Assembly (NCBI RefSeq): GCF_900177655.1
Contig: NZ_FXWK01000001.1
Span: 2,472,686-2,536,685 of the forward strand
Source of the DNA: Devosia lucknowensis
GTDB lineage: Bacteria; Pseudomonadota; Alphaproteobacteria; Rhizobiales; Devosiaceae
Length of the DNA stretch: 64,000 nt
Direction: 5' to 3'
Made by a program: the position numbers and the translations under genes. Below, in pieces: positions 6,399-23,652 of this stretch. Under the pieces are notes generated by a model. That model made no database searches and had not been told where the DNA came from. It saw only the letters and a program-made list of their open reading frames with translations. Numbering within the stretch: position 1 is the first letter of the stretch; the number at the start of each line of letters is the position of its first letter.

Positions 6399-6504
6399 CG
6401 CTCAGGGCCTTGGGTCAGGTAAGGGTGCTTTACGCCTTTGGAAATTCCCCGCAGATTGCGCCCGCAATCGGAGGGACCGGCATTGTCATTCAGCGCTCGA
6501 CTAA

Positions 6505-6516
6505 CTAACATGTTAG
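6505..6516. promoter_or_regulatory. palindromic operator CTAACATGTTAG at the start of the GntR gene
   Basis: A perfect 12-bp palindrome ending 1 bp before the ATG of the GntR regulator, in the divergent gap with the dehydratase gene. The same sequence, extended to 14 bp, occurs upstream of the LldD-like gene at 23621-23634. Autoregulation by the adjacent GntR/FCD protein is inferred. Confidence 0.7.
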
Positions 6517-6517
6517 C

Positions 6518-7267
6518 ATGAAAACGGAAGTCGGTCCTTATCAATTTCTAGGCGCAGCAGGCGATTTCTCGCGCGGCACCGTCACGGTCGATGTCACCAA
6601 TGCGCTGCGCCATGCCATCGTGACGCTGGCGCTGCCCCCCGGCACCGTGCTCGACAAGACGGCCATCTGCGCCCAGCTCGGGGTCTCCCGTTTCCCCGTC
6701 AGCGAGGCGCTGGCGCGGCTGGCCGATGAGGGCTTGGTCGATATTCTGCCCCAGCGCGGCTCCATCGTCTCCCGGGTCAAGATCGCCGACGTCCGCGAAT
6801 ACATGCTCATTCGCAAGGGTCTCGAGAGCGAGGCGCTCCGCGTGCTCATCGGCCGGCACGATGCCGACGCCATCGAAGCCCTGCATGCCAACATGGCCGC
6901 CCAGCGCGATGCAGCGGCCCGCGACGACGCCGAAACCTTCCACCAGATCGACGTCGATTTCCACGACATCATCTTCCGCTCCCTGCGCATGACCAAGGTC
7001 AAGTCGATCATCGACAAGGCTCGCGCCAATCTCGACCGCGCCCGGCGCCTGATCATCACGCCACGCCGTCTCAACCATACCATCGCCGAGCATCAGGCCA
7101 TCTTCGATGGCATCCTTGCGCGCGACACCCAACAGGCCATGACGGCGATCCGGGCCCATATCGATGCGGTCATGGTCGAACTCTTCGCCTTCGCCCAGGC
7201 CCATCCGTCGCTGTTCGCCGACGGCCACGATTTCACCGCCGAGGACAACGACTTTCCCTTCGGCTAG
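6518..7267 (+). CDS. GntR-family transcriptional regulator (FadR/FCD subfamily)
   Basis: A 249-residue regulator. An N-terminal winged helix-turn-helix (about 25-85) shows the GntR pattern: LPPGTVLDKTAICAQLGVSR, then SEALARLADEGLV. A C-terminal FCD ligand domain (about 95-225) contains the metal-binding motif HQIDVDFHDIIF and later HQAIFDGI and HIDAV. No Shine-Dalgarno is visible before the ATG, and a palindromic operator ends 1 bp upstream, so the transcript may be leaderless. The next gene, fucU, starts 13 bp after the stop. It probably controls the sugar-acid cluster on both sides and, by the shared palindrome, a distant lactate dehydrogenase gene. Confidence 0.92.
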   Translation: MKTEVGPYQFLGAAGDFSRGTVTVDVTNALRHAIVTLALPPGTVLDKTAICAQLGVSRFPVSEALARLADEGLVDILPQRGSIVSRVKIADVREYMLIRKGLESEALRVLIGRHDADAIEALHANMAAQRDAAARDDAETFHQIDVDFHDIIFRSLRMTKVKSIIDKARANLDRARRLIITPRRLNHTIAEHQAIFDGILARDTQQAMTAIRAHIDAVMVELFAFAQAHPSLFADGHDFTAEDNDFPFG

Positions 7268-7280
7268 CGAGAAACGGATC

Positions 7281-7739
7281 ATGCTGAAAAACATTCCCGC
7301 CCTACTGGGGCCTGAGCTGCTCTCGACCCTGCGCGCCATGGGACACGGCGACGAACTGGTCATCGCCGATGCCAATTTTCCGGCCGAGTTCCTGGGTCCG
7401 CTGGTGATCCGCGCCGATGGCATCACAGCCACGGCCATGCTCGATGCCGTCCTGACGCTGCTCCCACTCGATCAGTTCGTCGATGAAACCGCCATCGGCA
7501 TGCAGGTGGTCGGCGAGCCGGCTGCGCGCCAGCCCATCGACGACGAGTTTGAAGCCATCATCGCCCGCCACGAACCCGAAAAGCACTATTCCAAGATCGA
7601 GCGCTTCGCCTTCTACGACCGCGCCCGCAAGGCCGCCGCCGTCATCCAGACCGGCGAAACCCGCCTCTATGGCAATATCATCCTCAAGAAGGGCGTCATC
7701 CGCCCCACGTCTGCTGAATTCTCGGAGAGACCACAATGA
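7281..7739 (+). CDS. fucU: L-fucose mutarotase (RbsD/FucU family)
   Basis: A 152-residue RbsD/FucU protein that interconverts the anomers of L-fucose. The start MLKNIPALLGPELLS, the motif MGHGDELVIADANFPAE and the C-terminal RFAFYDRARKAAA with YGNIILKKGV follow E. coli FucU closely, and more closely than RbsD. The ATG at 7281 is chosen for this match. It lies 13 bp after the GntR gene and overlaps the next gene by 4 bp (ATGA), so the three genes form an operon. It is the clearest sign that the cluster handles L-fucose or a related 6-deoxy sugar. Confidence 0.9.
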   Translation: MLKNIPALLGPELLSTLRAMGHGDELVIADANFPAEFLGPLVIRADGITATAMLDAVLTLLPLDQFVDETAIGMQVVGEPAARQPIDDEFEAIIARHEPEKHYSKIERFAFYDRARKAAAVIQTGETRLYGNIILKKGVIRPTSAEFSERPQ

Positions 7740-8587
7740 AACTGCTTCGCGTTGGCGCCAAGGGCGCTGAAAAGCCCGCAATCTTTGCCGCCGACGGCAC
7801 GATCCGTGATCTCTCCGGCGTCGTGCCGGATATCGCCGGGGCGACCCTGCTGCCCGAGGGCCTGGCCAGGATAGCAGCGACAGACATCGACACCCTGCCA
7901 CAGCTTTCGGCGTCCGAGCGGATCGGACCCTGCGTGGGCAATGTCGGCAAGTTCATCTGCATCGGCCTCAACTACGCCGATCACGCTGCCGAAACCGGCG
8001 CCAAGATCCCCGAGGAGCCGATCATCTTCATGAAGGCCACCAGCGCCATCATCGGCCCCAATGACGACGTGATCATCCCAAAATACGCCATCAAGCCCGA
8101 CTGGGAGGTCGAGCTGGCCGTGGTCATCGGTAAGGAGGCCCGCTACGTCGAGGAGGCCGACGCGCTCGACCATGTCGCCGGCTACTGCGTCTGCAACGAC
8201 GTCTCCGAACGGCACTTCCAGACCGAGCGCGGCGGCACCTGGGACAAGGGCAAGGGCGCCGACACCTTCGGGCCCATCGGTCCCTGGCTCGTCACCCGCG
8301 ACGAAGTTCCCGATCCGCAGAACCTCAAGATGTGGCTCGAAGTCGATGGCAAGCGCTATCAGGATGGCTCGACCACGACGATGATCTTCGGCATCGCCAA
8401 GATCGTTTCCTACGTCTCCCACTTCATGAGCCTCCAGCCCGGCGACGTCATCACCACAGGCACGCCCCCCGGCGTCGGCATGGGTGTCCGCCCCGAGCCC
8501 GTCTGGCTCAAACCCGGCAATGTCATGCATCTGGGCATCCAGGGTCTGGGCGAACAGCGGCAGAACGTGAAGGCCTACTCGGCCTGA
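7736..8587 (+). CDS. fumarylacetoacetate hydrolase family protein, probable 2,4-diketo-3-deoxy-L-fuconate hydrolase
   Basis: A 283-residue FAH-superfamily enzyme. The catalytic domain (about 75-280) shows the usual pattern: GLNYADHAAETG, EEPIIFMKATSAIIGP, the acidic metal-site stretch DWEVELAVVIG, GYCVCNDVSERHFQ and TTGTPPGVGMG. The WDKGKGADTFGPIGPWLVT segment is typical of the diketo-deoxy-fuconate/rhamnonate hydrolase and ureidoglycolate lyase-like group. The known fuconate enzyme yields pyruvate plus L-lactate. The 4-bp overlap with fucU supports that assignment. Exact substrate is inferred from context. Confidence 0.85.
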   Translation: MKLLRVGAKGAEKPAIFAADGTIRDLSGVVPDIAGATLLPEGLARIAATDIDTLPQLSASERIGPCVGNVGKFICIGLNYADHAAETGAKIPEEPIIFMKATSAIIGPNDDVIIPKYAIKPDWEVELAVVIGKEARYVEEADALDHVAGYCVCNDVSERHFQTERGGTWDKGKGADTFGPIGPWLVTRDEVPDPQNLKMWLEVDGKRYQDGSTTTMIFGIAKIVSYVSHFMSLQPGDVITTGTPPGVGMGVRPEPVWLKPGNVMHLGIQGLGEQRQNVKAYSA

Positions 8588-8624
8588 AATCTCCACCTCC
8601 TTCATAAGGCCTGACCTTCCTCCT

Positions 8625-8659
8625 CCTCCCCCTCCTTAAGGGGGAGGCCGGGTGGGGGT
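8625..8659. repeat. palindromic intergenic repeat, family A copy 4
   Basis: CCTCCCCCTCCTTAAGGGGGAGG, then a GGGTGGGGG tail. It lies between the hydrolase gene and nadB. Confidence 0.75.
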
Positions 8660-8682
8660 GCACCCAACACCACCACCGATCC

Positions 8683-8705
8683 GTCCTCGGGCTCGACCCG
8701 AGGAC
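8683..8705. repeat. palindromic repeat, family B copy 1
   Basis: An inverted repeat, GTCCTCGGG then CTCGA then CCCGAGGAC, in the gap before nadB. Similar CCTCGGG/CCCGAGG palindromes recur near 15.5 kb. Confidence 0.65.
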
Positions 8706-8835
8706 CACGCGCAGCACCCACCAGATTGCAAATGACCCTCGGATCAAGTCCGGTGGCTGCCCAGCGGGGGTGAAACCTCTCCTTGCCCCCACTGCCCGCA
8801 CAAGCTAAGCCCCTTGCCATCCTGGGGAGGAGCTC

Positions 8836-10422
8836 GTGACAACCTTCGACAACACCCTCAACGCCGACGGCGCCCTCATCGTCGGTGCTGGTCTCGCAGG
8901 CCTCTTCACTGCGCTCAAGCTCGCGCCGCGTCCGGTCACCGTGCTCTCGCCCAAGCCGCTCGGCACCGGCGCCTCCTCCGCCTGGGCGCAGGGCGGGGTC
9001 GCTGCGGCCATGGGTGAAGGTGACAGCCCTCATGCTCATGCGCAGGACACCGAAATGGCCGGCGCCGGCATCGTCGATCATGGCATCGCCGAAAGCGTCA
9101 CGGCAGAAGCCGTAGCGCGCATCGAAGACCTCGCCCGCTGGGGCACCCCTTTCGATCGGGACGATTTCGGCAATTTCGAGCTCGGGCGCGAGGCGGCCCA
9201 CTCCGCCAACCGCATCGTCAAGGTCGAAGGTGATCGCGCCGGCTGGGCCATCATGCAGGCCATCATCGCCCAGGTGCGCAAGACGCCCTCGATCCGCGTC
9301 GTTGAAGGCATCACGGCCCTCAGCCTCGCGCGCGACAACGGCCGCATCGTCGGCATCTATGGACGGCGCCTTGGCGATCGCTATTCCGAACCCATCTTCA
9401 TTCGCGCGCGCGCCACCGTTCTCGCCGCCGGTGGCCTGGGCGGCCTTTATGCGGTCACCACCAATCCGCCCGGCGTGCGTGGCCACGCCCTGGGCATGGC
9501 GGCGCGCGCAGGGGCCATCATTGCCGACCCCGAATTCGTGCAGTTCCACCCCACCGCCATCGCCACGGGTGCCGATCCGGCCCCGCTCGCCACCGAAGCG
9601 CTGCGCGGCGAAGGCGCCATTCTCGTCAACGATCTGGGCGAGCGCTTCATGCCCGCCATTCATCCCGATGCCGAGCTGGCCCCGCGCGATGTCGTCGCCC
9701 GCGCCAATTTCCGGCAGATCCAGGCCGGACGGCAGGTCTTTCTCGATACGCGTCAGGCGCTGGGAGCCGATATCCTCACCCGTTTCCCCACCGTCTCGAA
9801 ATATTGCCGCGACGCCGGCATCGACCCGGTCAACGGCATGATCCCGGTGACGCCCGCTGCCCATTTCCACATGGGCGGCGTCAAGGTCGACGAACGTGGG
9901 CGCTCGTCACTGCCGGGCCTATGGGTTTGTGGCGAAGCAAGCTGCACGGGCCTGCATGGCGCCAATCGCCTGGCATCCAATTCCCTGCTCGAGGCCGTGG
10001 TCTATGGCGCGCGGATCGCAGAGGATATCGGCGGTCTCGAACCGCAGCGCGAACTCACGCCCTTCAAGGGCATCGAGTGGGATGAGGCCGAGGGCGCCCG
10101 GGCCGAGGAAGTGCTTCGCAACACCCCCGCCGTGCAGGACCTGCGCCGGGTCATGACCGATCTTGTCGGCGTCGAGCGCGACGCCGCAGGCCTGCGCACC
10201 GCCCTTCGCGAGATCGCCCGTCTCGAGGCCACGGCCGAACGGGTCACAAGCGCCTATCTCAACATGACCACCTCGGCCACGCTCGTCGCCGCGGCGGCCC
10301 TGAAACGCACCGAGAGCCGCGGCGGTCACTTCCGCATCGACTTCCCCGACTCCAACGAAGCCTGGGAACACCACACCGAAATGACGCTGTCAGAAGCGCT
10401 TTCCATCCGCGCGGAAGCCTGA
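8836..10422 (+). CDS. nadB: L-aspartate oxidase
   Basis: A 528-residue FAD enzyme that oxidises L-aspartate to iminoaspartate, the first step of NAD synthesis. The GTG at 8836 follows GGGGAGGAG at good spacing. The N-terminal FAD motif is ALIVGAGLAGLFTALKLA. Further flavoprotein motifs are SSAWAQGGVAAAMGE, TVLAAGGLGGLYAVTTNP, FVQFHPTAI, AAHFHMGGVKVDERGRSSL and GLHGANRLASNSLLEA. The C-terminal helical domain starts near residue 420. The partner nadA is 16 kb downstream rather than adjacent, and nadC is not in the window. Confidence 0.96.
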   Translation: MTTFDNTLNADGALIVGAGLAGLFTALKLAPRPVTVLSPKPLGTGASSAWAQGGVAAAMGEGDSPHAHAQDTEMAGAGIVDHGIAESVTAEAVARIEDLARWGTPFDRDDFGNFELGREAAHSANRIVKVEGDRAGWAIMQAIIAQVRKTPSIRVVEGITALSLARDNGRIVGIYGRRLGDRYSEPIFIRARATVLAAGGLGGLYAVTTNPPGVRGHALGMAARAGAIIADPEFVQFHPTAIATGADPAPLATEALRGEGAILVNDLGERFMPAIHPDAELAPRDVVARANFRQIQAGRQVFLDTRQALGADILTRFPTVSKYCRDAGIDPVNGMIPVTPAAHFHMGGVKVDERGRSSLPGLWVCGEASCTGLHGANRLASNSLLEAVVYGARIAEDIGGLEPQRELTPFKGIEWDEAEGARAEEVLRNTPAVQDLRRVMTDLVGVERDAAGLRTALREIARLEATAERVTSAYLNMTTSATLVAAAALKRTESRGGHFRIDFPDSNEAWEHHTEMTLSEALSIRAEA

Positions 10423-10431
10423 CGACAGCGC

Positions 10432-11307
10432 TCACTCGGTCAGCAAATACGTCGCCAGCGCCGTCAGGTCTTCGTCCGTCCAATGCGAGGTGGAATCGGC
10501 GATCACTTCGCCCATCGAACCGCCCAGCACGTCGAAGCCCGGGGTAAACCCGTCCTTGAGCGTCTGCACCAGCGTTGGCACATCGTAACCTTCTTCGGTA
10601 AGCGCCGCGGCCGTCAGCGCCGGAGCCCGACCGCCGGTTCCGCCGGGCGAGCCGGTGAGGGCCTTGTCCCATTCGAGCGCCCCCAGCGCGTTGCGGGGCG
10701 TGTGGCAGGCCACACAATGGGCCGGGCCATAAGCGAGATACTTGCCGCGATTGTACTGCTCGCTCTGTCCCTCCTCGGGGCTGAAGCGCGCCGGGCGGAA
10801 GAACAGGTTCTGCCAGCCGGCCATCGCCAGCCGGATGTTGAACGGGAACGGCACCTGGCTTTCGCCCGCCGGCGTCGAAACCGGTTCCGTCGCCATCAGT
10901 GCGGCATAGAGATCGACGATCTCCTGGTCGCTCATCAGCGTGTAGTTTTCATAGGGGAAGGTTGGATAGAGGTGCCCCTGCGGTCCCATGCCATTGCTCA
11001 TGGCATCGGAGAACTGCTGCACCGTCCACCGGCCGATGCCGACATCCGGGTCCGAGGTGATATTGGGCGGAACGAACGTACCAAATGCGGTTTCGAGGCC
11101 GACGCCGCCGGCCAGTTCCGCACCGCCGGCAGCAGCATTGGTGTGGCAGGCGACGCATCCGCCCAGGCGGATCAGGTAGTCACCGCGCGCCACATCCCCG
11201 ACAAGGGTCAGGTCGCGCGCCGGCCCCGTCACCGGCTTGAGGAAATAGGCCGCGGTCGCCGCGCCCAGAACCACCACGACACCCAGAACAATCCATCTCC
11301 GCCGCAT
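10432..11307 (-). CDS. membrane-anchored diheme cytochrome c
   Basis: A ~291-residue protein with an N-terminal membrane anchor (about residues 5-23, IVLGVVVVLGAATAAYF) and two cytochrome c domains. Each has a CVACH heme site: GGCVACHTN near residue 50 and AHCVACHTPRN near residue 195. The layout resembles cytochrome subunits of membrane-bound sugar and alcohol dehydrogenases, but no dehydrogenase is adjacent. The ATG at 11307 is preferred because TTGGGGTG lies ~6 bp upstream; a GTG at 11316 is possible. It converges on nadB with 9 bp between the stops. It likely passes electrons in the periplasm; the donor is unknown. Confidence 0.85.
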   Translation of the reverse strand: MRRRWIVLGVVVVLGAATAAYFLKPVTGPARDLTLVGDVARGDYLIRLGGCVACHTNAAAGGAELAGGVGLETAFGTFVPPNITSDPDVGIGRWTVQQFSDAMSNGMGPQGHLYPTFPYENYTLMSDQEIVDLYAALMATEPVSTPAGESQVPFPFNIRLAMAGWQNLFFRPARFSPEEGQSEQYNRGKYLAYGPAHCVACHTPRNALGALEWDKALTGSPGGTGGRAPALTAAALTEEGYDVPTLVQTLKDGFTPGFDVLGGSMGEVIADSTSHWTDEDLTALATYLLTE

Positions 11308-11365
11308 GACGAACACCCCAAGACGCTATCACGGGATAGAGAGCAGAGCGGCATCGCGCTGGCAA

Positions 11366-11381
11366 CTAACGGAAATGTTAG
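11366..11381. promoter_or_regulatory. CTAAC-N6-GTTAG inverted repeat upstream of cytochrome c gene
   Basis: Two half-sites matching those of the CTAACATGTTAG operator, but with 6 bp rather than 2 bp between them. It lies 59 bp upstream of the cytochrome start. It may be a weak related site or chance. Confidence 0.25.
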
Positions 11382-11383
11382 CT

Positions 11384-12328
11384 TTAGGCTGCGAGCACCG
11401 CATCGACTTCGCCCCGGCTCGGCGGCTGGCATCCCTTGCGCCCGCAATTGATCCCGGCCACCACGGCGCCGAACCGCAGCATCTCGGCCAGCGCCTCGGC
11501 GTCCAGCGCAGCGAGCCCGCCCGGCTTCAGCGCCCCGGCTTCGGCCAGCCATGTCAGTATGCCCGCCATGAGGCTGTCGCCTGCCCCCACCGTGTCCCCG
11601 AAGACCGGCGGCGCGTAGATCGGCGCCACGGCTTCCCCGGCTGCGGTAAAGGCACGGCTTCCGTGCTCGCCCAGCGTCACCACCACCAGTTCACACCGCG
11701 GCCGCGCCAGCAGTTCTGCCGCATGCGCCTCGATGCTGGTCCCTGGCTTGAGCCAGTCGTGGTCCTCTTCCGAGAGCTTGACCACATGGGCTGTATCGAG
11801 GAAAGCCGAGAGCCGGCTGCGATAGCCCGCCTCGTCGTCGATCAGTTTGTCGCGCACATTGATGTCGATCGAGATCGTTGCGCCCCGCTCGACTGCTGCC
11901 GCGACCACGTCGGTCCAGATGGCGGCGTCGTCGGCGCGGATCGGGGAGAAGCCGCCGATCTGGTAAAGCGCGATCCGCTCCGGCAGCGCCGCGATCAGGC
12001 CCTCGCGGGTGAACGCGCGGTCGGCATGCCGCTCGAAGACGTAGGATGCCTGCATCTTCTCGTTAAAGGTCACGATCGCCTTGGTGGTCGGCTCCGGCAC
12101 GCGGTCTTTGAGCAACACCGCGACGCCCGCCTCCGCCAGCGGCTTGAGCAGCAGGTCGCCATACTGGTCCTGGCTGATCGGGCAGAGAAAACCCGTCGCG
12201 TTTCCCAGCTTGGAGAGGGCGATCGCGCAGTTGAAGGGTGATCCACCCGCCAGCGCCACGCGCTCGGCATCCGCAGCGGCCGAAACCGGCACCAGGTCAA
12301 TCAGGCTTTCGCCCCCAACTACGAACAT
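11384..12328 (-). CDS. PfkB-family carbohydrate kinase (fructokinase-like)
   Basis: A 314-residue ribokinase-fold sugar kinase. The N-terminal motif is [12 protein letters not shown], followed by the substrate-binding glycine stretch [17 protein letters not shown]. The C-terminal ATP/anion-hole signature [16 protein letters not shown] carries the catalytic Asp. The ATG at 12328 has GGGAGGGAC upstream; longer starts read into non-homologous sequence. The sugar is not fixed by sequence; fructose is the commonest for this group. It is divergent from rpsU and is followed by the cytochrome c gene on the same strand 76 bp away. Confidence 0.87.
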
Positions 12329-12471
12329 GCGTCCCTCCCGAGTGCTGCGCTGGCCGCTGCATAGCACTTTCGGATCACTTGTCACCATCGGCCTCTTTAT
12401 GCACGCCGGGGATTTGGTCTCGGCGGCCAAAGCTGCTACACCCTCCCCGGGCAGCGGCAGCGTTGCTTCCG

Positions 12472-12491
12472 TCCGGGCTATGGGGCCCGGA
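12472..12491 (+). promoter_or_regulatory. hairpin in the rpsU leader
   Basis: TCCGGGC, a 6-nt loop, then GCCCGGA: a perfect 7-bp stem ending 7 bp before the ATG at 12499. No T-run follows, so it is not a normal terminator. It could be a leader structure controlling S21 translation. Confidence 0.4.
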
Positions 12492-12498
12492 ACGCACT

Positions 12499-12774
12499 AT
12501 GTTAGGAAAGTTTTTGCAGGTTCAGGTACGCGACAACAATGTCGATCAGGCCCTTCGGGTCCTCAAGAAGCGCCTCCAGCGCGAAGGCGTGTTCCGGGAG
12601 ATGAAACTCCGGAAGTATTTCGAAAAACCCTCTGAAGAACGTGTCCGGCGCAAGGCCGAAGCCGTGCGGCGCAGCCGCAAGGCGGCGCGCAAGCAGGCGA
12701 TCCGCGAAGGCCTGATCGCCGCGCCCAAGCGCCCCGAGCGCACCTTCGGCAGTCGCCCCGGCGGCGCTCGCTAG
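12499..12774 (+). CDS. rpsU: 30S ribosomal protein S21
   Basis: S21 is a small basic protein of the 30S subunit that helps in initiation. The body [20 protein letters not shown], then [20 protein letters not shown] is a full match to the alphaproteobacterial family, followed by a long Arg/Lys-rich tail. Two starts are possible: ATG 12499, with no good ribosome site, or TTG 12514, with AGGAAAG just upstream, giving the usual MQVxVRDNN N-terminus. I list the ATG, but the TTG looks more likely. The tail (about 85-91 residues in total) is somewhat long for the family. Confidence 0.92.
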
Positions 12775-12778
12775 CGTT

Positions 12779-13036
12779 TCAGGCTCTTCGGCCGGGCCGC
12801 CTGGCCTGGCCGAGCGCCTCGAGGCGCGCATGCATCCGCCGGATCTGGCCCGGACCGAAATCCGCTGCGCCGATTCGCAGCGATGCGCCCCTCAGGCTCA
12901 CCGGCGCGGCCTGCTCCATGGCAAAGCGCACCGCGCGTGCAGCAGTCCCGAAATGACGGCCGCCCAAAGCCTGTGCGGTGGTGACGTCGCTGCCCAGGAA
13001 CAATTCCCCGGGCGCGCTCAAGATATCGAAATTCAT
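12779..13036 (-). CDS. small conserved hypothetical protein
   Basis: An 85-residue protein beginning MNFDILSAPGELFLGSD with a basic C-terminus (RRMHARLEALGQARRPGRRA). I do not recognise a named domain. The ATG at 13036 gives a well-formed N-terminus; an AGAAAGAC lies upstream as a weak ribosome site. It converges on rpsU with 4 bp between the genes. There is no signal peptide, membrane segment or cysteine motif. Proteins of this look are common as uncharacterised genes in rhizobia. Confidence 0.6.
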   Translation of the reverse strand: MNFDILSAPGELFLGSDVTTAQALGGRHFGTAARAVRFAMEQAAPVSLRGASLRIGAADFGPGQIRRMHARLEALGQARRPGRRA

Positions 13037-13201
13037 TGTGTTATGGTCTTTCTGCCGGCACTCCGGCCGGTCTTCGGCGCAAGGCGCGCCAGGGGATGAT
13101 CCGCGCCACATTGGGCGCCCCGATCTCCCGGTAACGATGATGATTGCCAGCGATTTCCAGCCAACCTGCCTGCCAGCGCTGACGCGTGACGAAGCCGGCT
13201 G

Positions 13202-16461: not shown

Positions 16462-16471
16462 GGCACTCTCC

Positions 16472-17068
16472 TCAATTGATCGGCTTGGTTTTGCTGTCGG
16501 CGACGGCCGGATGCGCTGCGGCCGTCAGGTGATAGCGGCGCCTTCCGGCGCCTTGCGGATATCGTGCCGCCACGGCCGCGACCGCCTCGCTGAGTGCGGC
16601 AGCGAAATCCTCGAAATCGTGTGGCTGCTCAAAGCCGACATCGGCCTCTATTGTCAGCGTCAGCAGCCGCGCGCCAGCTGCCTCGGCCGCGCCCCGCATG
16701 CGGGTCACCTCGCGCACGATGTCGCCTGCCACAGCAACCAGGTGTTCCGCGGCGTACCGGTCCTGGGCGTCCACCTCTTTGCGGCCCAGCAGCGCCGGGT
16801 CGAGCACGAAGGCATCCGCCGATGCGACGAGCACCCGCTCGACGAAACCGCGGCGCTTGCGCTCCTCCACCAGTCGCACCAGTCCGGCGGCTTCGAGGGC
16901 CCGCAGGTGGTAGCCCAGCTGCTGGCGGGACATGTCGAGACGCTTGGCCAGGCTGCTGGCCGAGCCTGGCTCGCGCAAGGCATCCAGCAAGCGTCGCTTG
17001 ATCGGCGAGAGCACCATCATGGCGCGCGCGGCATCATCGATCAGGCGGGTCGGTTCGGATGCAGTCAT
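16472..17068 (-). CDS. ArsR-like winged helix transcriptional regulator
   Basis: A 198-residue regulator with an N-terminal winged helix (about 15-85): LSPIKRRLLDALREPGSASS, then LAKRLDMSRQQLGYHLRALE and AAGLVRLVEERKRRGFVER. The C-terminal half is helical with no metal-binding cysteines, so it is not a metal sensor. A 24-bp inverted repeat 13 bp upstream of the ATG is its likely operator. It heads an operon with the AHSA1-domain gene and is divergent from the TRAP transporter genes. Confidence 0.85.
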   Translation of the reverse strand: MTASEPTRLIDDAARAMMVLSPIKRRLLDALREPGSASSLAKRLDMSRQQLGYHLRALEAAGLVRLVEERKRRGFVERVLVASADAFVLDPALLGRKEVDAQDRYAAEHLVAVAGDIVREVTRMRGAAEAAGARLLTLTIEADVGFEQPHDFEDFAAALSEAVAAVAARYPQGAGRRRYHLTAAAHPAVADSKTKPIN

Positions 17069-17081
17069 GGCCCAAGGCTAG

Positions 17082-17105
17082 AATTGACAATTATATTTGT
17101 CAATT
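17082..17105. promoter_or_regulatory. inverted repeat AATTGACAA-N6-TTGTCAATT (operator of ArsR-like regulator)
   Basis: Perfect 9-bp arms separated by TTATAT, just upstream of the regulator start. The AT-rich centre probably overlaps the promoter, so binding would repress the operon (inference). It may also affect the divergent TRAP genes. Confidence 0.7.
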
Positions 17106-17231
17106 AACAACGAGGGTGAGCGTGGTCATCGCCGGACGATATCGTGTTGACCGGCCGGAAGGATGATGGTCAATCTTTTCAAGGGAGAAAGCGGCGCCGG
17201 GGAGCGCTGCAAGCATGAGGGGAGGCGATCC

Positions 17232-17795
17232 GTGCAGGGTTTAGCCGCGCTGGTCAAAGGTATCAGCGCTATCAACTGGCTTGTGGGCCAGATCTTGTCT
17301 TGGCTGGCATTGGCCTGTGTTCTGGTCTGCTTCACCGTCGTGGTGCAGCGCTACTTCTTCAACACCTCGACGCTTTGGGTACAGGATCTCTATGTCTGGG
17401 TCGGAGGCGCCATGTTCACGGGCGTCGCCGGTTTCGCGCTCCTGCGTGACGATCATGTTCGTGTCGACATTTTCTACCGCCCGTCTTCGGTCAGGCGCAA
17501 AGCCATGGCCGATCTCTTCGGCGTGGTCGTGTTCCTTCTCCCTTTCATGTATGTCGTCATTCGCTACTGCTATCCGGCGGTGGCGCGCTCCTGGGGCTTT
17601 TACGAGGGCTCCTCGAATATCGGGGGCATGCCGGGGCTGTTCATCCTCAAGGGCTTCATAATCGCCTTTGCCGTGCTGGTCGGCCTTCAGGGCATAGCCA
17701 TGGCAGCACGCGCCATTCTGGTTCTCGCCAACCGCGAGGAACTCCTGCCGCCAGACCTCCGCTATAAGACAGACGACGCAAGGGAAGCGCACTGA
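17232..17795 (+). CDS. TRAP transporter small membrane subunit (DctQ family)
   Basis: A 187-residue protein with four membrane helices (about 15-35, 55-75, 95-115, 145-165). This is the small permease subunit of a tripartite ATP-independent transporter. The GTG at 17232 is chosen because AGGGGAGG lies 7 bp upstream; an ATG at 17163 would add 23 non-conserved residues. The conserved NTSTLWVQDLYVWVGGAMF region is visible. It overlaps the large subunit gene by one base (TGATG), so they are cotranslated. Confidence 0.88.
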   Translation: MQGLAALVKGISAINWLVGQILSWLALACVLVCFTVVVQRYFFNTSTLWVQDLYVWVGGAMFTGVAGFALLRDDHVRVDIFYRPSSVRRKAMADLFGVVVFLLPFMYVVIRYCYPAVARSWGFYEGSSNIGGMPGLFILKGFIIAFAVLVGLQGIAMAARAILVLANREELLPPDLRYKTDDAREAH

Positions 17796-19183
17796 TGGAT
17801 CCCGTCCTTATCGGCGAGATTCTCGCCGCCCTGATGTTCGTGGGCGTCATCGGCGTCCTCATGCTCGGTTTCCCGGTCGCCTTTTCGCTGGCCGGCACGG
17901 CCATTCTCTTTGGCCTCGTCGGATGGTGGCTGGGCGTCTATGACCCCTCCAACTATGGCTCGCTGGCCGGGCGCTATATCGGCCTCATGACCAACGAAGT
18001 CCTGGTGGCGGTGCCGCTGTTCGTGTTCATGGGCGTAATGCTCGAACGCTCGGGAATTGCCGAGCAACTTCTGCTCACCATGGGCAAGCTGTTCGGCAAT
18101 TTGCGGGGCGGACTTGCCTTGTCGGTGATTGTCGTCGGTGCGTTGCTCGCCGCCTCCACCGGCGTGGTCGGCGCCACCGTCGTTACCATGGGCCTGATTT
18201 CGCTGCCTGCCATGCTGCGTGCCGGCTACGATCCCAAGCTTGCGACCGGCGTCATCTGCGCTTCGGGCACCCTGGGTCAGATCATACCGCCTTCCACGGT
18301 GCTGATTTTCATGGGCGACATGCTCTCGGGCATCAATGCCCAGGTGCAGATGGAAAAGGGCAACTTTGCCCCCGAACCCGTTTCGGTCGGCGCCCTGTTT
18401 GCAGGTGCCATCATTCCTGGCCTGCTGCTGGTTTCGCTCTACGCGATCTTCGTCATCGTCAAGGCCTGGCTCGACCCCAAGTCTGCGCCAGCAACGCCGG
18501 TGCCCGAAACCGAAAAGGCATCGCTCTGGCGTGAGGTGGTCGTGGCGCTTATTCCGCCACTACTCCTCATCATTGCCGTGCTCGGCTCCATCCTGGCCGG
18601 CATCGCCACCCCAACCGAGGCTGCCTCGGTCGGCTCGGTTGGCGCGCTGCTGCTCTCGCTGCTGCGTGGCAAGCTCACCCTGGGTATTCTCCGCCAGGCC
18701 GTCATCTCCACCGCCACCATCACCTCCATGGTGTTCATCATCCTTTTCGGCGCGGCGGTGTTCTCCATCGTCTTCCGCATGATGGGCGGCGATAACCTGG
18801 TGCACGAATTCCTGTCGTCCATGCCGGGCGGCGCCGTTGGAGCCATCATCATCGTGATGCTGGTGATGTTTCTGCTGGGCTTCATCCTCGACACCTTTGA
18901 AATCATCTTCATCGTCATCCCGATAACGGCCCCGGTGCTCCTGGCGCTCGATGTCAATCCGATCTGGCTTGGGGTGATGGTGGGGGTGAACCTTCAGACC
19001 AGCTTCCTGACCCCGCCATTCGGCTTCGCCCTGTTCTATCTGCGCGGCGTTGCCCCTTCGCGCATTACCACGGGCATGATCTACAAGGGCGTCGTGCCCT
19101 TCGTGATCCTGCAGATCGTCGCCCTGATCACGCTGTTCTTCTTCCCGCAGTTGATCACCTGGCTGCCCGGCGTGCTTTACTGA
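17795..19183 (+). CDS. TRAP transporter large permease subunit (DctM family)
   Basis: A 462-residue integral membrane protein with about 12 helices. It has the family motifs LAASTGVVGATVVTMGLISLP, GTLGQIIPPSTVLIFMGDML, and a C-terminal LDTFEIIFIVIPITAP, then TPPFGFALFYLRGVAP. It forms the Na+- or H+-coupled channel with the DctQ-type subunit. A ~45-residue insert between helices (about 180-250) is common in the mannitol/2-oxoacid group. The periplasmic subunit gene is convergent just downstream. Substrate is inferred from that subunit. Confidence 0.93.
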   Translation: MDPVLIGEILAALMFVGVIGVLMLGFPVAFSLAGTAILFGLVGWWLGVYDPSNYGSLAGRYIGLMTNEVLVAVPLFVFMGVMLERSGIAEQLLLTMGKLFGNLRGGLALSVIVVGALLAASTGVVGATVVTMGLISLPAMLRAGYDPKLATGVICASGTLGQIIPPSTVLIFMGDMLSGINAQVQMEKGNFAPEPVSVGALFAGAIIPGLLLVSLYAIFVIVKAWLDPKSAPATPVPETEKASLWREVVVALIPPLLLIIAVLGSILAGIATPTEAASVGSVGALLLSLLRGKLTLGILRQAVISTATITSMVFIILFGAAVFSIVFRMMGGDNLVHEFLSSMPGGAVGAIIIVMLVMFLLGFILDTFEIIFIVIPITAPVLLALDVNPIWLGVMVGVNLQTSFLTPPFGFALFYLRGVAPSRITTGMIYKGVVPFVILQIVALITLFFFPQLITWLPGVLY

Positions 19184-19206
19184 CTTCGAAGACGGTTCGC
19201 GCAGCG

Positions 19207-19273
19207 AATATGCGGCTCCAGTGGAGCCGCATAAGTCGAGAAGGCCATGAGAGCTACGCTCGAATGGCAGCCA
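19207..19273. repeat. dispersed repeat, family D copy 1 (hairpin plus conserved tail)
   Basis: TATGCGGCTCC, AGT, GGAGCCGCATA (11-bp perfect stem at 19209-19233), followed by a tail (to ~19273) that matches the tail after a hairpin at 23655-23679. The stem sequences differ but both stay paired. Confidence 0.6.
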
Positions 19274-19302
19274 GCCGAACGGTAGCAGAGAATGAAAACA
19301 AA

Positions 19303-19326
19303 AAGCCCGGGCCTCAGCCCGGGCTT
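19303..19326 (-). terminator. rho-independent terminator of the TRAP binding-protein gene
   Basis: AAGCCCGGGC, CTCA, GCCCGGGCTT. Read on the minus strand, the stem is followed by a TTTTTG run, so it ends the minus-strand binding-protein gene. It may also stop dctM from the other side. Confidence 0.85.
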
Positions 19327-19348
19327 CTTCGTGCGGTCGATAGTTCGC

Positions 19349-20449
19349 TTATTCGTACTTGATGTACTTTTCGCGCGCGGCCAGGAACGGCATGTCGGTG
19401 CCTTCCGTGCGCTGGCGCAGCAGGTTGAAGGCGGAGACGAAGCTCTCGGCCACTTCCTTGGTATTGGCGTCGCCGCCGTCGCGGATTTCCTGGATCAGTT
19501 CCATCGAAGCCTTGGCGCCAGCCTCGAGGATTTCCTCTGGGAACTGGCGGATCTGCACGCCATGTTCGCTGACAAGCGCATTGAGCGCGCGCGGATCGTT
19601 GGCATACATGTCCGACGCCACGTCGTCATACGAAGCCTGGGCACACATGCGGACGATTTCCTGCAGGTCTTCCGGCAGCTCCTGGAACTTGGCCTTGTCC
19701 ACCACGATTTCGGTGGCCAGGCCCGGCTCGACGAAGCTTGGGAAGTAGTAGTTCTTGGCGATCTGGTAGAAGCCGAGCGCCAGGTCGTTATAGGGCCCGA
19801 CGAATTCGGCGGCATCGAGCGTACCCGACTGCAGCGCGGCGAAGATTTCGCCGGCGGCCAGATTGGTCACAGAGGCGCCGAGCTTGGCCCAGACCTGTCC
19901 GCCGAGACCCGGCGTGCGGAAGCGAAGGCCCTGGATATCGGCGACGCCGGTCAGCTCATTGCGGAACCAGCCACCGGCCTGGGTGCCGGTATCGCCCGAA
20001 AGGAAGCCCTGCAGGCCGAACTGGTCGTAGATCTTGTCCCACAGCTCCTGGCCGCCCAGATAGCGCACCCAGGCGGTGAGTTCGCGGCTGGTCATGCCGA
20101 ACGGCACGCCGGTGAAGAAGCTCAGCCCCTGGCTCTTGTTCTGCCAGTAATAGGGCGTGCCGTGGCTCATTTCGGCAGAACCGTCGATCACGGCATCCAG
20201 CGCCTGCAGGCCCGGCACCATTTCGCCGGCAGCGAACAGCTGCACGGTCAGCCTGCCACCCGAGGCGCGGGTGATGCGGTCGGCCAGGTTCTGGGCGCCC
20301 ACGCCCAGGCCCGGAAAGTTCTTCGGCCAGGTCGTCACCATGCGCCAGGTGATGTTGCCCTGTGCAATTGCGGGCGTGGCCAGTGTTGCAGCAGCTGCTG
20401 CGCCGATGGTCGCAACCGAAGCCTGTTTGAAAAATTCGCGTCTCTTCAT
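19349..20449 (-). CDS. TRAP transporter substrate-binding protein, TakP-like (2-oxoacids or lactate)
   Basis: A 366-residue periplasmic binding protein (DctP superfamily). The N-terminus MKRREFFKQASVATIG is a twin-arginine signal, with a cleavage site around TPAIA. The ATG at 20449 has GGGAGGG upstream. Family motifs include WRMVTTWPKNFPGLGVGAQ, HGTPYYWQNKSQGLSFF, GGWFRNELTGVADIQGLRFR and AEFVGPYNDLALG. They match TakP-type proteins that bind 2-oxoacids such as pyruvate. It is convergent with the two permease genes, an unusual layout. Substrate is inferred. Confidence 0.88.
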   Translation of the reverse strand: MKRREFFKQASVATIGAAAAATLATPAIAQGNITWRMVTTWPKNFPGLGVGAQNLADRITRASGGRLTVQLFAAGEMVPGLQALDAVIDGSAEMSHGTPYYWQNKSQGLSFFTGVPFGMTSRELTAWVRYLGGQELWDKIYDQFGLQGFLSGDTGTQAGGWFRNELTGVADIQGLRFRTPGLGGQVWAKLGASVTNLAAGEIFAALQSGTLDAAEFVGPYNDLALGFYQIAKNYYFPSFVEPGLATEIVVDKAKFQELPEDLQEIVRMCAQASYDDVASDMYANDPRALNALVSEHGVQIRQFPEEILEAGAKASMELIQEIRDGGDANTKEVAESFVSAFNLLRQRTEGTDMPFLAAREKYIKYE

Positions 20450-20607
20450 GAAAATCCCTCCCTTGCGGCGTCTCCCGCCGGACCGAAAAGCGCCCTCTCC
20501 CAAGCGACGCACCGGTCACGGCTAACAAAGCAATCCGGATGCCACCTGTCCAGCATGTTGTTATGCGCCAATGCAAATTTCCGGCCACGAGGTTTTTTCG
20601 GCGTCGC

Positions 20608-20637
20608 GGGATTAAACCGCCCTGCCCGGTGTTGATG
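20608..20637 (+). promoter_or_regulatory. candidate ECF-type promoter
   Basis: GGGATTAAA and GTTGATG separated by 14 bp, ~46 bp upstream of the secreted repeat protein gene. It has the look of an ECF sigma promoter that could be read by the sigma factor encoded next. No consensus has been tested. Confidence 0.3.
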
Positions 20638-20682
20638 CAGGGGAAGGCCGCTCACTGGCCTTGCAACAGGAGGACGTTTCCC

Positions 20683-21081
20683 ATGCAGTTCCGTTCGCTT
20701 CTCGCCGGCGCCGCCGCGCTCGCGTTCATCGTCGCCCCCGCCTTCGCCGCCGACTATCTGGGCGGCGCCGTCAAGTCGACCGATATCGGCGGCAAGATGG
20801 TTCTGACCGATACCAATGGCATGACCCTTTACACCTTCGACAAGGATACCAAGGGCGACGGCAAGAGCGTCTGCAACGGCGATTGCGCCGTCAAGTGGCC
20901 GCCGCTGATGGCCGATGCCGCCGCCACCGACGATGGCGACTTCACCGTCGTCACCCGCGACGACGGCTCCAAGATGTGGGCCTACAAGGGCTGGCCGCTC
21001 TACTACTGGTACGAGGACATGGCGGCGGGCGACACCAAGGGTGACGGCGTCGGCGGCGTCTGGCATCTTGCCATCGAGTAA
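20683..21081 (+). CDS. secreted Yx(FWY)xxD-repeat protein (COG4315-like)
   Basis: A 132-residue protein with a signal peptide (MQFRSLLAGAAALAFIVAPA, cleaved near residue 22) and the PF03640-type secreted repeat: GMTLYTFDKDTKGDGKSVCN near residue 45 and KMWAYKGWPLYYWYEDMAAG near 100. The repeats carry the YxFxxD and YxWYED signatures, with the short CNGDCAVKWPP pair of cysteines between them. The ATG at 20683 has CAGGAGGA upstream. It stands 28 bp before an ECF sigma gene, a common pairing. Function of the family is unknown. Confidence 0.87.
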   Translation: MQFRSLLAGAAALAFIVAPAFAADYLGGAVKSTDIGGKMVLTDTNGMTLYTFDKDTKGDGKSVCNGDCAVKWPPLMADAAATDDGDFTVVTRDDGSKMWAYKGWPLYYWYEDMAAGDTKGDGVGGVWHLAIE

Positions 21082-21109
21082 CTGAGTTCCACCGCGAGGA
21101 CTGGTCGGC

Positions 21110-21616
21110 GTGGTCGATTTTCTCGATGAGCTGCAGGAATGCGTTCCGGCCCTGCGCCGCTACGCCCGTGCGCTCACCCGGGACGTCGACCGCGCCGACG
21201 ACCTGGTGCAGGATTGCCTCGAGCGCGCCATCGCCCGCCGCGGCCTGTTCCAGCCGCGCGGCCCCCTGCGCCCCTGGCTCTACACCATCCTCACCAATCT
21301 CCACCGCAACGGCCTGCGCGCCCAGCGCCGCCACGGCACGCCGCTTGATCTCGACGCCGTGCCCGAACCGGCGACTCCGGCGCCACAACCCGGCCACCTG
21401 GCCCTCGCCGAACTGGCCCGCGCCATCGACACCCTGCCCCTCGAACAGAAGGAAGCCCTGCTGCTGGTTACCCTCGAAGGCCTCGCCTATGCCGACGCCG
21501 CCCGCATCCTCGACATTCCCCAGGGCACGTTGATGAGCCGCCTCGGCCGCGCCCGTTCGGCCCTGCGCACGCTCACCGGCACGCCGGCCGAACCGCATCT
21601 GAGGACCGTCAAATGA
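21110..21616 (+). CDS. ECF RNA polymerase sigma factor
   Basis: A 168-residue sigma-70 family member with only regions 2 and 4. Region 2 (about 10-75) has RYARALTRDVDRADDLVQDC and a region 2.3-2.4 stretch, PLRPWLYTILTNLHRNGLRA. Region 4 (about 100-155) has LPLEQKEALLLVTLEGLAYA, then ARILDIPQGTLMSRLGRARS. The GTG at 21110 follows GCGAGGA. It overlaps the next gene by 4 bp (ATGA). It lies between a secreted repeat protein and its probable anti-sigma factor. Confidence 0.93.
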   Translation: MVDFLDELQECVPALRRYARALTRDVDRADDLVQDCLERAIARRGLFQPRGPLRPWLYTILTNLHRNGLRAQRRHGTPLDLDAVPEPATPAPQPGHLALAELARAIDTLPLEQKEALLLVTLEGLAYADAARILDIPQGTLMSRLGRARSALRTLTGTPAEPHLRTVK

Positions 21617-22404
21617 GCGGCATCGATCGCGACACCATCATGGCCTATGTCGACGGGCAGCTCGACCAGCCCCGGCGCGACGCCGTCGAGGCCGATCCGG
21701 CCGCCATGGCCGAAGTCGCCGTGCTCCAGCGCCAGTCCGACGCCATCCGCACCCTGCATGCGCCGGCCGGGGCGGAACCCGTTCCCAAGCGGCTCGATCC
21801 CCATCGCCTGGCGCTCCTGCGCGCGCGGCGCCGCTGGTCGGGTCTGCGCCAGGCGGCGGTCCTGGCCGTCTTCCTCGGCATCGGCATCGTCACCGGCTGG
21901 CTCAATCGCCCCGCCCCCGACGAGCCCGCCCTCTACAATCGCCTCATCGCCGACGCCGTCAGCGCCCACACCGTATACGTCGCGGAAAACCGGCACGCCG
22001 TCGAAGTCCCGGGCGGCGAAACCGAACATCTCTCGACCTGGCTTTCCAATCGGCTGGGCACGGGCCTGGCCATGCCCGACCTCTCGCCTGCGGGCCTCAG
22101 CTTCCTGGGCGGCCGCCTCCTGCCTGCCCCCGCCATTCCCGGCGGTCGCGCCGCCCAGCTCATGTACGAGGATGCCGCCGGCCAGCGCCTGACGCTCTAT
22201 GTCACCCCGTCCAATGGCGTCGATGGACCCGAACTCGAGGCGGTGAGCTTCGGCGGCGACAACGCGCTCTACTGGGCCAATGCCACCATCACCTGCACCA
22301 TTGTCGGGTCGCAGTCCCCCGAAGCGCTCCAGGCACTCGCCACCAGCATCTTCGCCCAGCTGACGCCGGCCGCATCGGCAGAAGTGCCCGATTACGAGCT
22401 CTAG
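21613..22404 (+). CDS. anti-sigma factor (membrane)
   Basis: A 263-residue protein starting MSGIDRDTIMAYVDGQLDQP, typical of the N-terminal helix of ECF anti-sigma factors. One membrane helix follows (about 79-95, AAVLAVFLGIGIVTGWL), then a ~165-residue periplasmic domain. No zinc-binding HxxxCxxC motif is visible, so it is not a ZAS protein. The 4-bp overlap with the sigma gene implies co-translation. Its stop shares a CTAG with the stop of the convergent LldD-like gene. Confidence 0.87.
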   Translation: MSGIDRDTIMAYVDGQLDQPRRDAVEADPAAMAEVAVLQRQSDAIRTLHAPAGAEPVPKRLDPHRLALLRARRRWSGLRQAAVLAVFLGIGIVTGWLNRPAPDEPALYNRLIADAVSAHTVYVAENRHAVEVPGGETEHLSTWLSNRLGTGLAMPDLSPAGLSFLGGRLLPAPAIPGGRAAQLMYEDAAGQRLTLYVTPSNGVDGPELEAVSFGGDNALYWANATITCTIVGSQSPEALQALATSIFAQLTPAASAEVPDYEL

Positions 22405-23582
22405 CCGCGCCTGGGCGCATTCCGGGGCGGAATATCGTTGGAGTAAATGGTGTGCAGGCCCACATTGCGGATGTCGCGCTCCCCGCACAGCGCCATCGTC
22501 GTGTCGATTTCCTTGCGCAGGATCTCCAGCACGCGCGTCACGCCCGCCTCGCCACCGGCCCCCAGCCCATAGAGCATCGGGCGACCGATGAAGGTCGATT
22601 TGGCGCCATAGGCCAGCGCCTTGATCACGTCCTGTCCCGTGCGGATGCCGCTATCGAGATAGACTTCGGTCCTGTGCCCCACCCGGTCGACGATTTCGGG
22701 CAGCACGCGAATGGTCGAGGGCGCCCCGTCCAGCTGCCGCCCGCCGTGATTGGAAACCACCACCGCATCGGCGCCATTGTCGACCGCCGCCTGCGCGTCG
22801 TCGGCATCGAGCACGCCCTTGACGATGACCGGACCGCCGAACCGCTCCTTGATCCAGCGCACGTCACCCCAGTTGAGCGTCGGGTCGAACTGCGACGCCG
22901 TCCACGATGACAGCGACGCCAGGTCGTGATCACCGCTCACATGCCCCACGATATTGCGGAATGTATGCCGCTTGGTCCCCAGCATGCGCAGGCACCACAG
23001 CGGGTGCTGCATCATCTGCCAGATCGAGTAGGGCGTGAACTTGGGCGGCGTCGCCAGCCCGTTCTTGATGTCCTTGTGCCGCTGCCCCAGGATCTGCAGG
23101 TCCATGGTCAGCACCAGCGCCGAACACTTCGCCGCCTTGGCCCGGTCGATCAGCCGGTTGATGAAGTCGCGGTCGCGCATGACATAGAGCTGAAACCAGA
23201 ACGGCGCCGTCGTGTTCTCGGCCACGTCTTCGATCGAGCAGACGCTCATCGTCGAGAGCGAAAACGGAATGCCGAACTTTTCGGCGGCCCGTGCCGCCTT
23301 GATCTCGCCGTCCGCCGTCTGCATGCCGCCGGTCGCCGCCGGGGCGATCGCCACCGGCATGGTGATCGGCTTGCCCAGCATGTCGACCTTGAGGTTGCGG
23401 CCCTCGAGATTGACCGCCACCTTCTGGTTGAGCAGGATCTTGCCGAAATCGCTCTCGTTCTGCCGATAGGTCCCCTCGGTGTAGGAGCCGCTATCGGCAT
23501 ATTCGAAGAACATCTTCGGCACGCGCCGATGCGCCAGCCGCTTCATTTCCTCAACGGTCAGGACCTTGTCGATCGCGGTCAT
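22401..23582 (-). CDS. lldD: FMN-dependent alpha-hydroxy acid dehydrogenase, probable L-lactate dehydrogenase
   Basis: A 393-residue TIM-barrel flavoenzyme that oxidises L-lactate to pyruvate. The ATG at 23582 begins MTAIDKVLTVEEMKRLAHRR. Family motifs are VPKMFFEYADSGSYTEGTYR, MPVAIAPAATGGMQ, PFWFQLYVMRDRDF, the catalytic VVVSNHGGRQLDGAP and the C-terminal FMN phosphate site VYLDSGIRTGQDVIKALAYG. Upstream at 23621-23634 is the palindrome found at the fucose-type regulator (6505-6516). L-lactate is a product of that pathway, so coregulation makes sense. Glycolate or 2-hydroxy acids are alternative substrates. Confidence 0.9.
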   Translation of the reverse strand: MTAIDKVLTVEEMKRLAHRRVPKMFFEYADSGSYTEGTYRQNESDFGKILLNQKVAVNLEGRNLKVDMLGKPITMPVAIAPAATGGMQTADGEIKAARAAEKFGIPFSLSTMSVCSIEDVAENTTAPFWFQLYVMRDRDFINRLIDRAKAAKCSALVLTMDLQILGQRHKDIKNGLATPPKFTPYSIWQMMQHPLWCLRMLGTKRHTFRNIVGHVSGDHDLASLSSWTASQFDPTLNWGDVRWIKERFGGPVIVKGVLDADDAQAAVDNGADAVVVSNHGGRQLDGAPSTIRVLPEIVDRVGHRTEVYLDSGIRTGQDVIKALAYGAKSTFIGRPMLYGLGAGGEAGVTRVLEILRKEIDTTMALCGERDIRNVGLHTIYSNDIPPRNAPRRG

Positions 23583-23620
23583 GGCAGCGCGCTCCGGAGT
23601 AAGTCCCGCCTGCTCTAACA

Positions 23621-23634
23621 ACTAACATGTTAGT
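23621..23634. promoter_or_regulatory. palindromic operator ACTAACATGTTAGT upstream of lldD
   Basis: A 14-bp perfect palindrome 39 bp upstream of the lldD ATG. The inner 12 bp equal the palindrome at 6505-6516. An extra half-site, CTAACA, lies just to its left at 23614-23619. Confidence 0.7.
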
Positions 23635-23652
23635 CTTCAAGCCGTGCCACAG

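Follow-up and report, generated by a model that had tools for sequence, protein, structure and literature searches.

The stretch of DNA analysed here (the window) comprises 64 kb of the genome of Devosia lucknowensis, which amounts to 3.71 Mb on two contigs. The window has two exact copies of a 12-bp palindrome, CTAACATGTTAG (6505-6516 and 23622-23633), and a search allowing up to two mismatches gave no further match there. The first copy lies between divergent genes for a galactarate/altronate-dehydratase-family protein and a GntR-family regulator (gntR), and the second lies upstream of an LldD-like L-lactate dehydrogenase gene (lldD). The features at the two loci are as follows.

4848..6398, minus strand: UxaA/GarD-family dehydratase, predicted L-fuconate dehydratase (galactarate dehydratase model 405 bits, under the cutoff of 731; PDB 6u7l, E 9.6e-103)
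6505..6516: operator-like palindrome CTAACATGTTAG between the uxaA-family gene and gntR, separated from the gntR ATG by a single base; exact in 30/30 fetched ortholog loci
6518..7267, plus strand: GntR-family regulator with a winged helix and an FCD effector domain (FCD 5.4e-21, GntR 3.3e-13); candidate binder of the palindrome
7281..7739, plus strand: FucU/RbsD-family mutarotase (Pfam RbsD_FucU 6.3e-41; NCBIfam L-fucose mutarotase 126 bits, under the cutoff of 141)
7736..8587, plus strand: predicted FAH-family 2,4-diketo-3-deoxy-L-fuconate/rhamnonate hydrolase (NCBIfam NF053535 430 bits, under the cutoff of 500)
22401..23582, minus strand: LldD-like FMN-dependent L-lactate dehydrogenase, 393 aa from ATG 23582 (PF01070 (FMN_dh) 3.6e-133; PRK11197 406 bits, cutoff 376; both scores computed on a longer start)
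23621..23634: 14-bp perfect palindrome ACTAACATGTTAGT upstream of lldD; exact 12-mer in 30/30 fetched lldD promoters

The original prediction, that identical 12-bp palindromes stand at both places and that the second is perfect over 14 bp, was reproduced by the motif search; the first copy, with outer bases A...C, is not perfect over that length. Matches to the GntR and FCD, RbsD_FucU and FAA_hydrolase families agree with the neighbours proposed for the first site (a GntR/FCD regulator, fucU and a fumarylacetoacetase-fold hydrolase), to which the divergent dehydratase gene on its far side, absent from that earlier account, must be added. The gene after the second site had been called LldD-like, as its FMN_dh match and its PRK11197 score bear out, and the proposed distance of 39 bp between palindrome and gene holds if ATG 23582, with GGAG upstream, is the start (38-39 bp).

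In the whole genome, exact CTAACATGTTAG has three copies versus none for the reversed control, and the form CTRACATGTYAG, with R/Y allowed at position 3 of both halves, has nine sites versus one reversed-control site. For training Markov models of order 0-3, 233 kb of the genome were used, 140 kb of them in stretches centred on sites; the models expect 0.002-0.049 exact CTAACATGTTAG and 0.26-0.36 CTRACATGTYAG sites per genome. All five one-mismatch sites in the genome are of the R/Y form. At up to two mismatches there is no enrichment (17 sites versus 34 for the reversed control), which limits the motif to CTRACATGTYAG, and the two-mismatch matches were dropped. The nine sites are the following.

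Site 1, window: uxaA/gntR
Site 2, window: lldD
Site 3, contig 2, 16.5 kb: Zn-dehydrogenase
Site 4, contig 2, 593.7 kb: GlcD-like FAD/Fe-S oxidase
Site 5, 1.49 Mb: aldo-keto reductase (AKR)
Site 6, 528 kb: FGGY (RhaK-like) kinase with an NDH-like flavoprotein
Site 7, 1.055 Mb: glyoxalase/NAD-epimerase pair
Site 8, 866 kb: Gfo/Idh/MocA and TIM-barrel gene pair behind an ATP-binding cassette (ABC) transporter
Site 9, 1.904 Mb: 1.2-kb gap before a gene without assigned family

The comparison in relatives proposed with the original prediction recovers the exact site at every gntR and lldD locus read. Sites were counted within 250 bp upstream of each gene in fetched loci, which were the best-scoring 30 of 36 gntR orthologs in the genus and of 56 lldD, 57 GlcD-like, 53 AKR and 57 kinase genomes. 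CTRACATGTYAG precedes gntR, lldD and the GlcD-like gene in 30/30 loci each, the AKR gene in 29/30 (one mismatch in the remaining locus) and the kinase gene in 28/30 (one mismatch in each of the other two). The Zn-dehydrogenase gene has it in 15/25 loci, that is, in 15/18 matches of at least 67% identity and in 0/7 of those at or below 52%. CTAACATGTTAG itself accounts for 30 gntR, 30 lldD, 25 GlcD-like, 0 AKR and 5 kinase loci (each of 30) and for 11 of the 25 Zn-dehydrogenase loci; the AKR sites take the CTAACATGTCAG form. Fifty-nine non-degenerate control palindromes with permuted halves have 0 occurrences each at the same loci, and the DNA flanking the conserved gntR and lldD sites varies between relatives.

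Sites are present in 60/61 Devosia genomes, with 2-10 in each, versus a reversed control found once in seven genomes and in none of the others; in other families of the order, 21/24 genomes are without a site and three have one. Orthologs of the GntR protein occur in 58/61 Devosia genomes, the three without being assemblies that are 55-78% complete, and a search of named genomes gave 45 loci at 68-89% identity, 42 from Devosia and 3 labelled Phyllobacteriaceae, Alphaproteobacteria or Rhizobiales. The lldD gene lies within 30 kb of gntR in 45/48 genomes having both on one contig, and in 8 more the two are on different contigs. One Devosia genome of 2.0 Mb (G077) keeps gntR and four sites and has no match to lldD, the GlcD-like gene, AKR or the kinase at strict E-value limits.

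Seventy-one sites were read one by one in 10 genomes, and their classes were counted by hand with Pfam names: gntR/uxaA 10, lldD 10, GlcD-like 10, kinase 9, AKR 8, hydrolase gap 7, lactonase/short-chain dehydrogenase (SDR) or IclR/ABC 4, glyoxalase 3, gene without assigned family 3, Gfo/TIM 2, Zn-dehydrogenase 1 and others 4. Six recurring promoters take 54/71 of them (one kinase was assigned through a kinase homolog search), and the gene caller places 71/71 between genes. That the shared palindrome is a product of chance or a common genomic repeat might be argued from the lack of enrichment among looser matches and from shuffling, in which 3/100 shuffles of 64 kb reach two sites at up to two mismatches. 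Nine genome sites versus 0.26-0.36 expected, conservation in 30/30 loci at three genes and 0/71 sites within a called gene render this explanation exceedingly improbable, and it was rejected on genome-wide rarity and conservation. What was found is a scarce site linked to genes for sugar and lactate use, the opposite of the common and unlinked repeat that would have told against a shared operator.

The position of the sites within promoters suits a repressor, to judge from promoter-like elements at two loci of the window.

6483..6511, plus strand: promoter-like TTGTCA-N17-TAACAT for gntR (1 found versus 0.3 expected), with the second hexamer inside the palindrome
23612..23640, minus strand: promoter-like TTGAAG-N17-TAGAGC for lldD, whose spacer is occupied by the palindrome

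The TTGT of the gntR element is invariant in a 10-sequence alignment. The gntR ATG (6518) directly follows the palindrome, the predicted transcription start falls on this ATG, and an open frame of 247-251 codons begins from the ATG just after the palindrome in 30/30 loci. Judging by this arrangement, the gntR transcript may be leaderless, with the palindrome standing where a ribosome-binding site would be (6505-6520). In 29/30 lldD loci TTGACN or TTGAAG is followed by a 17-base spacer taken up by the palindrome and then by a second hexamer, mostly TAGGGC (17) or TAGAGC (7); a strict promoter scanner made no call at the lldD promoter of the window. A second site occurs in the gap between fucU and the hydrolase gene at 20/30 gntR loci, with TCGACA just upstream in 20/20 and, 17 bases further along, a hexamer that varies and often contains TAT; D. 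lucknowensis is without this site because its fucU and hydrolase genes overlap. The start of the GlcD-like gene is probably ATG at L021 10039, 42 codons upstream of the first call and nine bases after the palindrome. An ATGCAG start stands 9-12 bases after the site in 29/30 GlcD-like loci, which leaves little room for a ribosome-binding site.

The protein encoded next to the first site has the domains of the FCD (FadR) subfamily, with 49.5 bits for Pfam GntR (cutoff 27) and 75.7 bits for FCD (cutoff 24.3). Its AlphaFold model (mean predicted local distance difference test score, pLDDT, 87.1) has two strands, preceded by three helices in the N-terminal part and followed by six in the C-terminal part. 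The FCD metal-binding residues D145, H149, H192 and H214 are invariant among 19 aligned proteins and, compared by eye, match Asn137, His141, His192 and His214 of Atu1419 from Agrobacterium. The recognition helix reads VSRFPVSEA in 30/30 orthologs, with Ser where Atu1419 has Arg49 (matched by eye), and in a paralog encoded by this genome the corresponding helix is SRQPVREA. Among the regulator genes seen, only gntR stands beside a site at all 30 loci and in all 10 genomes read.

A genome of another family (G056) encodes a GntR protein of 37% identity beside a UxaA homolog of 55%, and at the start called for this GntR gene (L206) stand CTAACATG half-sites in tandem; CTAGCATGTTAG precedes an AKR homolog of 44%, and the genome as a whole has one exact site. 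This arrangement is independent support for the pairing of GntR and site, from one genome. In a further genome, a GntR protein of 44% identity adjoins D-lyxose isomerase, and no clear palindrome was seen there.

The reading that we prefer, with a probability of about 0.77, is that the GntR/FCD protein encoded at 6518-7267 has CTRACATGTYAG as its operator and is an autoregulated repressor that would join oxidative L-fucose breakdown to lactate oxidation. The central proposal of the original prediction, that one GntR regulator controls both the fucose cluster and lldD, is thus supported by a shared, conserved site, with the GntR protein as the putative binder. Without inducer, the repressor would bind the palindrome, which overlaps the -35 and -10 hexamers or lies in the space that separates them, on its own promoter as well as on others. 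Its release would follow when the FCD domain takes up an inducer, probably either lactate or one of the intermediate acids formed as 6-deoxyhexoses are oxidised. The regulon, spread over both contigs, would include the UxaA-type dehydratase, gntR-fucU-hydrolase, lldD, a D-lactate-dehydrogenase-like FAD/Fe-S protein, an L-fucose-dehydrogenase-like AKR, the Zn-dehydrogenase, and the RhaK-like kinase with the NDH-like flavoprotein. The route would run from fucose through the lactone, fuconate, 2-keto-3-deoxyfuconate and 2,4-diketo-3-deoxyfuconate to pyruvate and L-lactate, and would be switched on along with the enzymes that burn its lactate. The link between the fucose cluster and lldD therefore stands, and the regulon extends further than first proposed, to the D-lactate-dehydrogenase-like, RhaK-like kinase, AKR, Zn-dehydrogenase and glyoxalase genes.

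Homologs of UxaA, FucU and FAH stand beside gntR in 30/30 loci read. The closest solved relative of the hydrolase is L-2,4-diketo-3-deoxyrhamnonate hydrolase (PDB 8gsr, E 2e-95), a type whose reaction yields pyruvate and L-lactate (PMC11199699), and this homology supports the fucose-type pathway with these products that had been predicted. A Martelella plasmid carries genes for a GntR protein, mutarotase, UxaA, AKR, SDR and FAH together, with no fucD annotated in the stretch shown, and this grouping supports the UxaA-type protein as a putative L-fuconate dehydratase. The AKR is 50% identical to the product of a Neorhizobium gene annotated as D-threo-aldose 1-dehydrogenase in a fuc (fucD) cluster, a name that we take to mean L-fucose dehydrogenase. 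An SDR of the relative G010 is 69% identical to the SDR of the Neorhizobium fuc cluster; in the stretches read of the D. lucknowensis genome the only match is at 30%.

Some of these enzymes could serve another sugar. The best PDB relatives of the AKR are L-galactose dehydrogenases; the best models for the Zn-dehydrogenase are PRK10083 (YjjN, LgoD; below cutoff) and RspB, and its homologs are paired with uxaA in Neorhizobium and Rhizobium. The regulon might accordingly be one for L-galactose and L-galactonate, with UxaA, an LgoD-like Zn-dehydrogenase and an L-galactose-dehydrogenase-like AKR, and not for L-fucose. This is improbable, since a hydrolase of the 2,4-diketo-3-deoxyrhamnonate type is needless for an L-galactonate route through 2-keto-3-deoxygluconate (KDG), lldD is left unexplained, and the Zn-dehydrogenase is present in just 24/61 Devosia genomes. 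The predicted sugar is L-fucose, in preference to L-galactose or L-rhamnose.

The GlcD-like protein combines FAD-oxidase and Fe-S/CCG domains, its remote PDB relatives are named lactate dehydrogenases, and a homolog of 48% identity lies between lldP and lut-type genes in Azospirillum, from which D-lactate may be its substrate. It is conceivable, if doubtful, that the same GntR protein is mainly a lactate sensor resembling LldR, with lactate as inducer, both lactate dehydrogenases as core targets and the fucose genes included as lactate makers. The genes for lldD and the D-lactate-dehydrogenase-like protein are the most constant distant targets (30/30 each), a homolog of the latter belongs to the Azospirillum lactate-use cluster, glyoxalase genes have the site in 3/10 genomes, and the FCD metal site is kept, all of which such a sensor would explain. 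Against it, gntR stands beside the UxaA, FucU and FAH homologs in every locus, the NCBIfam LldR model gives the protein 33.1 bits versus a cutoff of 311, and it is unusual for an end product to induce the sugar route that leads to it.

A number of findings weigh against the preferred reading, an L-fucose operator bound by the neighbouring GntR protein. The published operator consensus of the FadR subfamily is NyGTM-N0-1-KACNy, with exceptions listed in the same source (PMC4494728), and CTRACATGTYAG misses it, having AC before GT (an order seen in 265 distinct contexts, which were gathered with the CTRACATGTYAG pattern itself). The genome has 15 GntR matches, so that a paralog could bind. Two assemblies (G062 and G066) have no gntR match yet three and four sites; they are 78% and 55% complete, and gntR may be absent only from the incomplete assembly. 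Together with the LysR or IclR genes that adjoin some sites, these findings might indicate that another regulator binds the palindrome and that gntR is merely one of its targets. We regard this as unlikely: gntR alone of the regulators seen is beside a site in all loci, the distantly related GntR gene from another family has the same half-sites where it starts, and an invariant helix VSRFPVSEA without the canonical Arg would suit an unusual operator. The Martelella cluster also counts against the preferred reading, as it lacks the motif and its GntR protein is just 33% identical.

The remaining adverse points concern the pathway. The GlcD-like protein is far under the model cutoffs (glycolate oxidase 161/568 bits, hydroxyglutarate 155/1350 bits), and L-fucose alone does not explain the D-lactate-dehydrogenase-like protein, the kinase (52% identical to the kinase of an S. 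meliloti rhamnose-transport operon) or the glyoxalase. Of the genes expected near sites, the AKR, which has one, is a candidate counterpart of fucose dehydrogenase; the expected lactonase and transporter were not found there. No transporter gene was seen immediately downstream of any of the nine sites, and the 17 kb read with the lactonase homolog (L201:7903-8727) are free of sites. In relatives, lactonase loci have a site within 1.5 kb upstream in 11/30 fetched cases, and the homolog in G010 scores 80/400 bits with the lactonase model. The amidohydrolase lactonase was rejected as a core target on this count of 11/30. A lactonase gene of the SMP-30 type adjoins lldD in some genomes (homologs at 4/30 lldD loci, one of them Pfam-scanned).

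It is tempting to speculate that the GntR/FCD protein is a genus-wide master regulator with an off-consensus operator, which senses what the routes of 6-deoxyhexose oxidation have in common at their end (a diketo-deoxy acid or lactate), couples L-fucose and rhamnose-type routes to L- and D-lactate dehydrogenases across two replicons, and has a leaderless start of its own overlapped by the operator. This fuller proposal is put forward tentatively, as a possibility that the odds do not favour.

Other elements were seen near the sites. Hairpins of 25 bp at 23655-23679 and 19209-19233 have the common core CTCCAGTGGAG and a similar flank; before lldD in several relatives the pairing is kept and the letters are changed, as in a REP element or terminator. 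The hairpin at 23655-23679 was rejected as a second operator, given that, by eye, its letters differ in relatives that keep complementary arms and many of the 30 loci are without any. Another dispersed hairpin family, CCTCCCCCTG...CAGGGGGAGG, occurs in the window at 3799-3821 and 25961-25981 and at L019:18646-18668. TRAP transporter genes at 17163-20341 (DctQ and DctM on the plus strand, DctP on the minus strand) lie between both palindromes without a site of their own. The 1.2-kb gap of site 9 (L022 9704-10910) has its CTGACATGTCAG site at 10031, and the same site form stands near homologs in G009 and G032; Rfam gave no match in the gap, and Pfam gave none for the G032 homolog of the gene after it.

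Among the papers searched, none contains the string CTAACATGTTAG or unites L-fucose, L-lactate dehydrogenase, GntR and an operator in one regulon; 14 mention both L-fucose and lldD, and a search on Devosia regulons with transcription factor binding gave just a general plant-microbiome review. A pair of palindromes that looked like chance has become a defined, testable regulon in Devosia. Co-regulation predicts roles for loosely annotated Devosia genes, namely the UxaA-type L-fuconate dehydratase, the AKR, the kinase and the D-lactate dehydrogenase, and the highly conserved operator and protein, both of which depart from the GntR consensus, may be usable for learning how the recognition helix sets specificity.

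BioR and NanR, which belong to the FadR subfamily, serve biotin and sialate genes. Like CTRACATGTYAG, their sites lie off the GT-AC consensus of the GntR family; the sites themselves differ, being TTATMKATAA and TGGTATAW direct repeats (PMC4494728). Atu1419 (PDB 6z74) is likewise an FCD repressor with three metal histidines and a short palindrome that covers -10 or lies between it and -35, whereas its operator is ATGTATACAT, Arg49 of its recognition helix makes a contact for which Devosia has Ser, and it represses three hydroxycinnamate genes (PMC7797058). The non-phosphorylating L-fucose route 3 (FucM/A/B/C/F/G) has homologs in Devosia for its mutarotase and 2,4-diketo-3-deoxyfuconate-type hydrolase and candidate homologs for its AKR-type dehydrogenase and its dehydratase, the hydrolase (FAH fold) and the mutarotase agreeing at the family level with scores under the NCBIfam cutoffs; by contrast, the putative Devosia dehydratase is of the UxaA type and not an enolase-superfamily FucD, and the genes are dispersed and joined with lactate dehydrogenases (PMC11199699). 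A parallel in logic is offered by the RhaR regulons, which include lldD or lldEFG in Actinomycetales and Rhodobacterales: there, too, a 6-deoxyhexose regulator is predicted to control L-lactate dehydrogenase and the pathway ends in pyruvate, although the sugar is L-rhamnose, the route is a phosphorylating one through RhaEW, the taxa are others and the main text of the report does not mention GntR (PMC3870299). A 6-deoxyhexose regulator that takes in lldD has therefore already been published (PMC3870299), and what is new here is the extent, a dispersed regulon with both an L-lactate and a putative D-lactate dehydrogenase.

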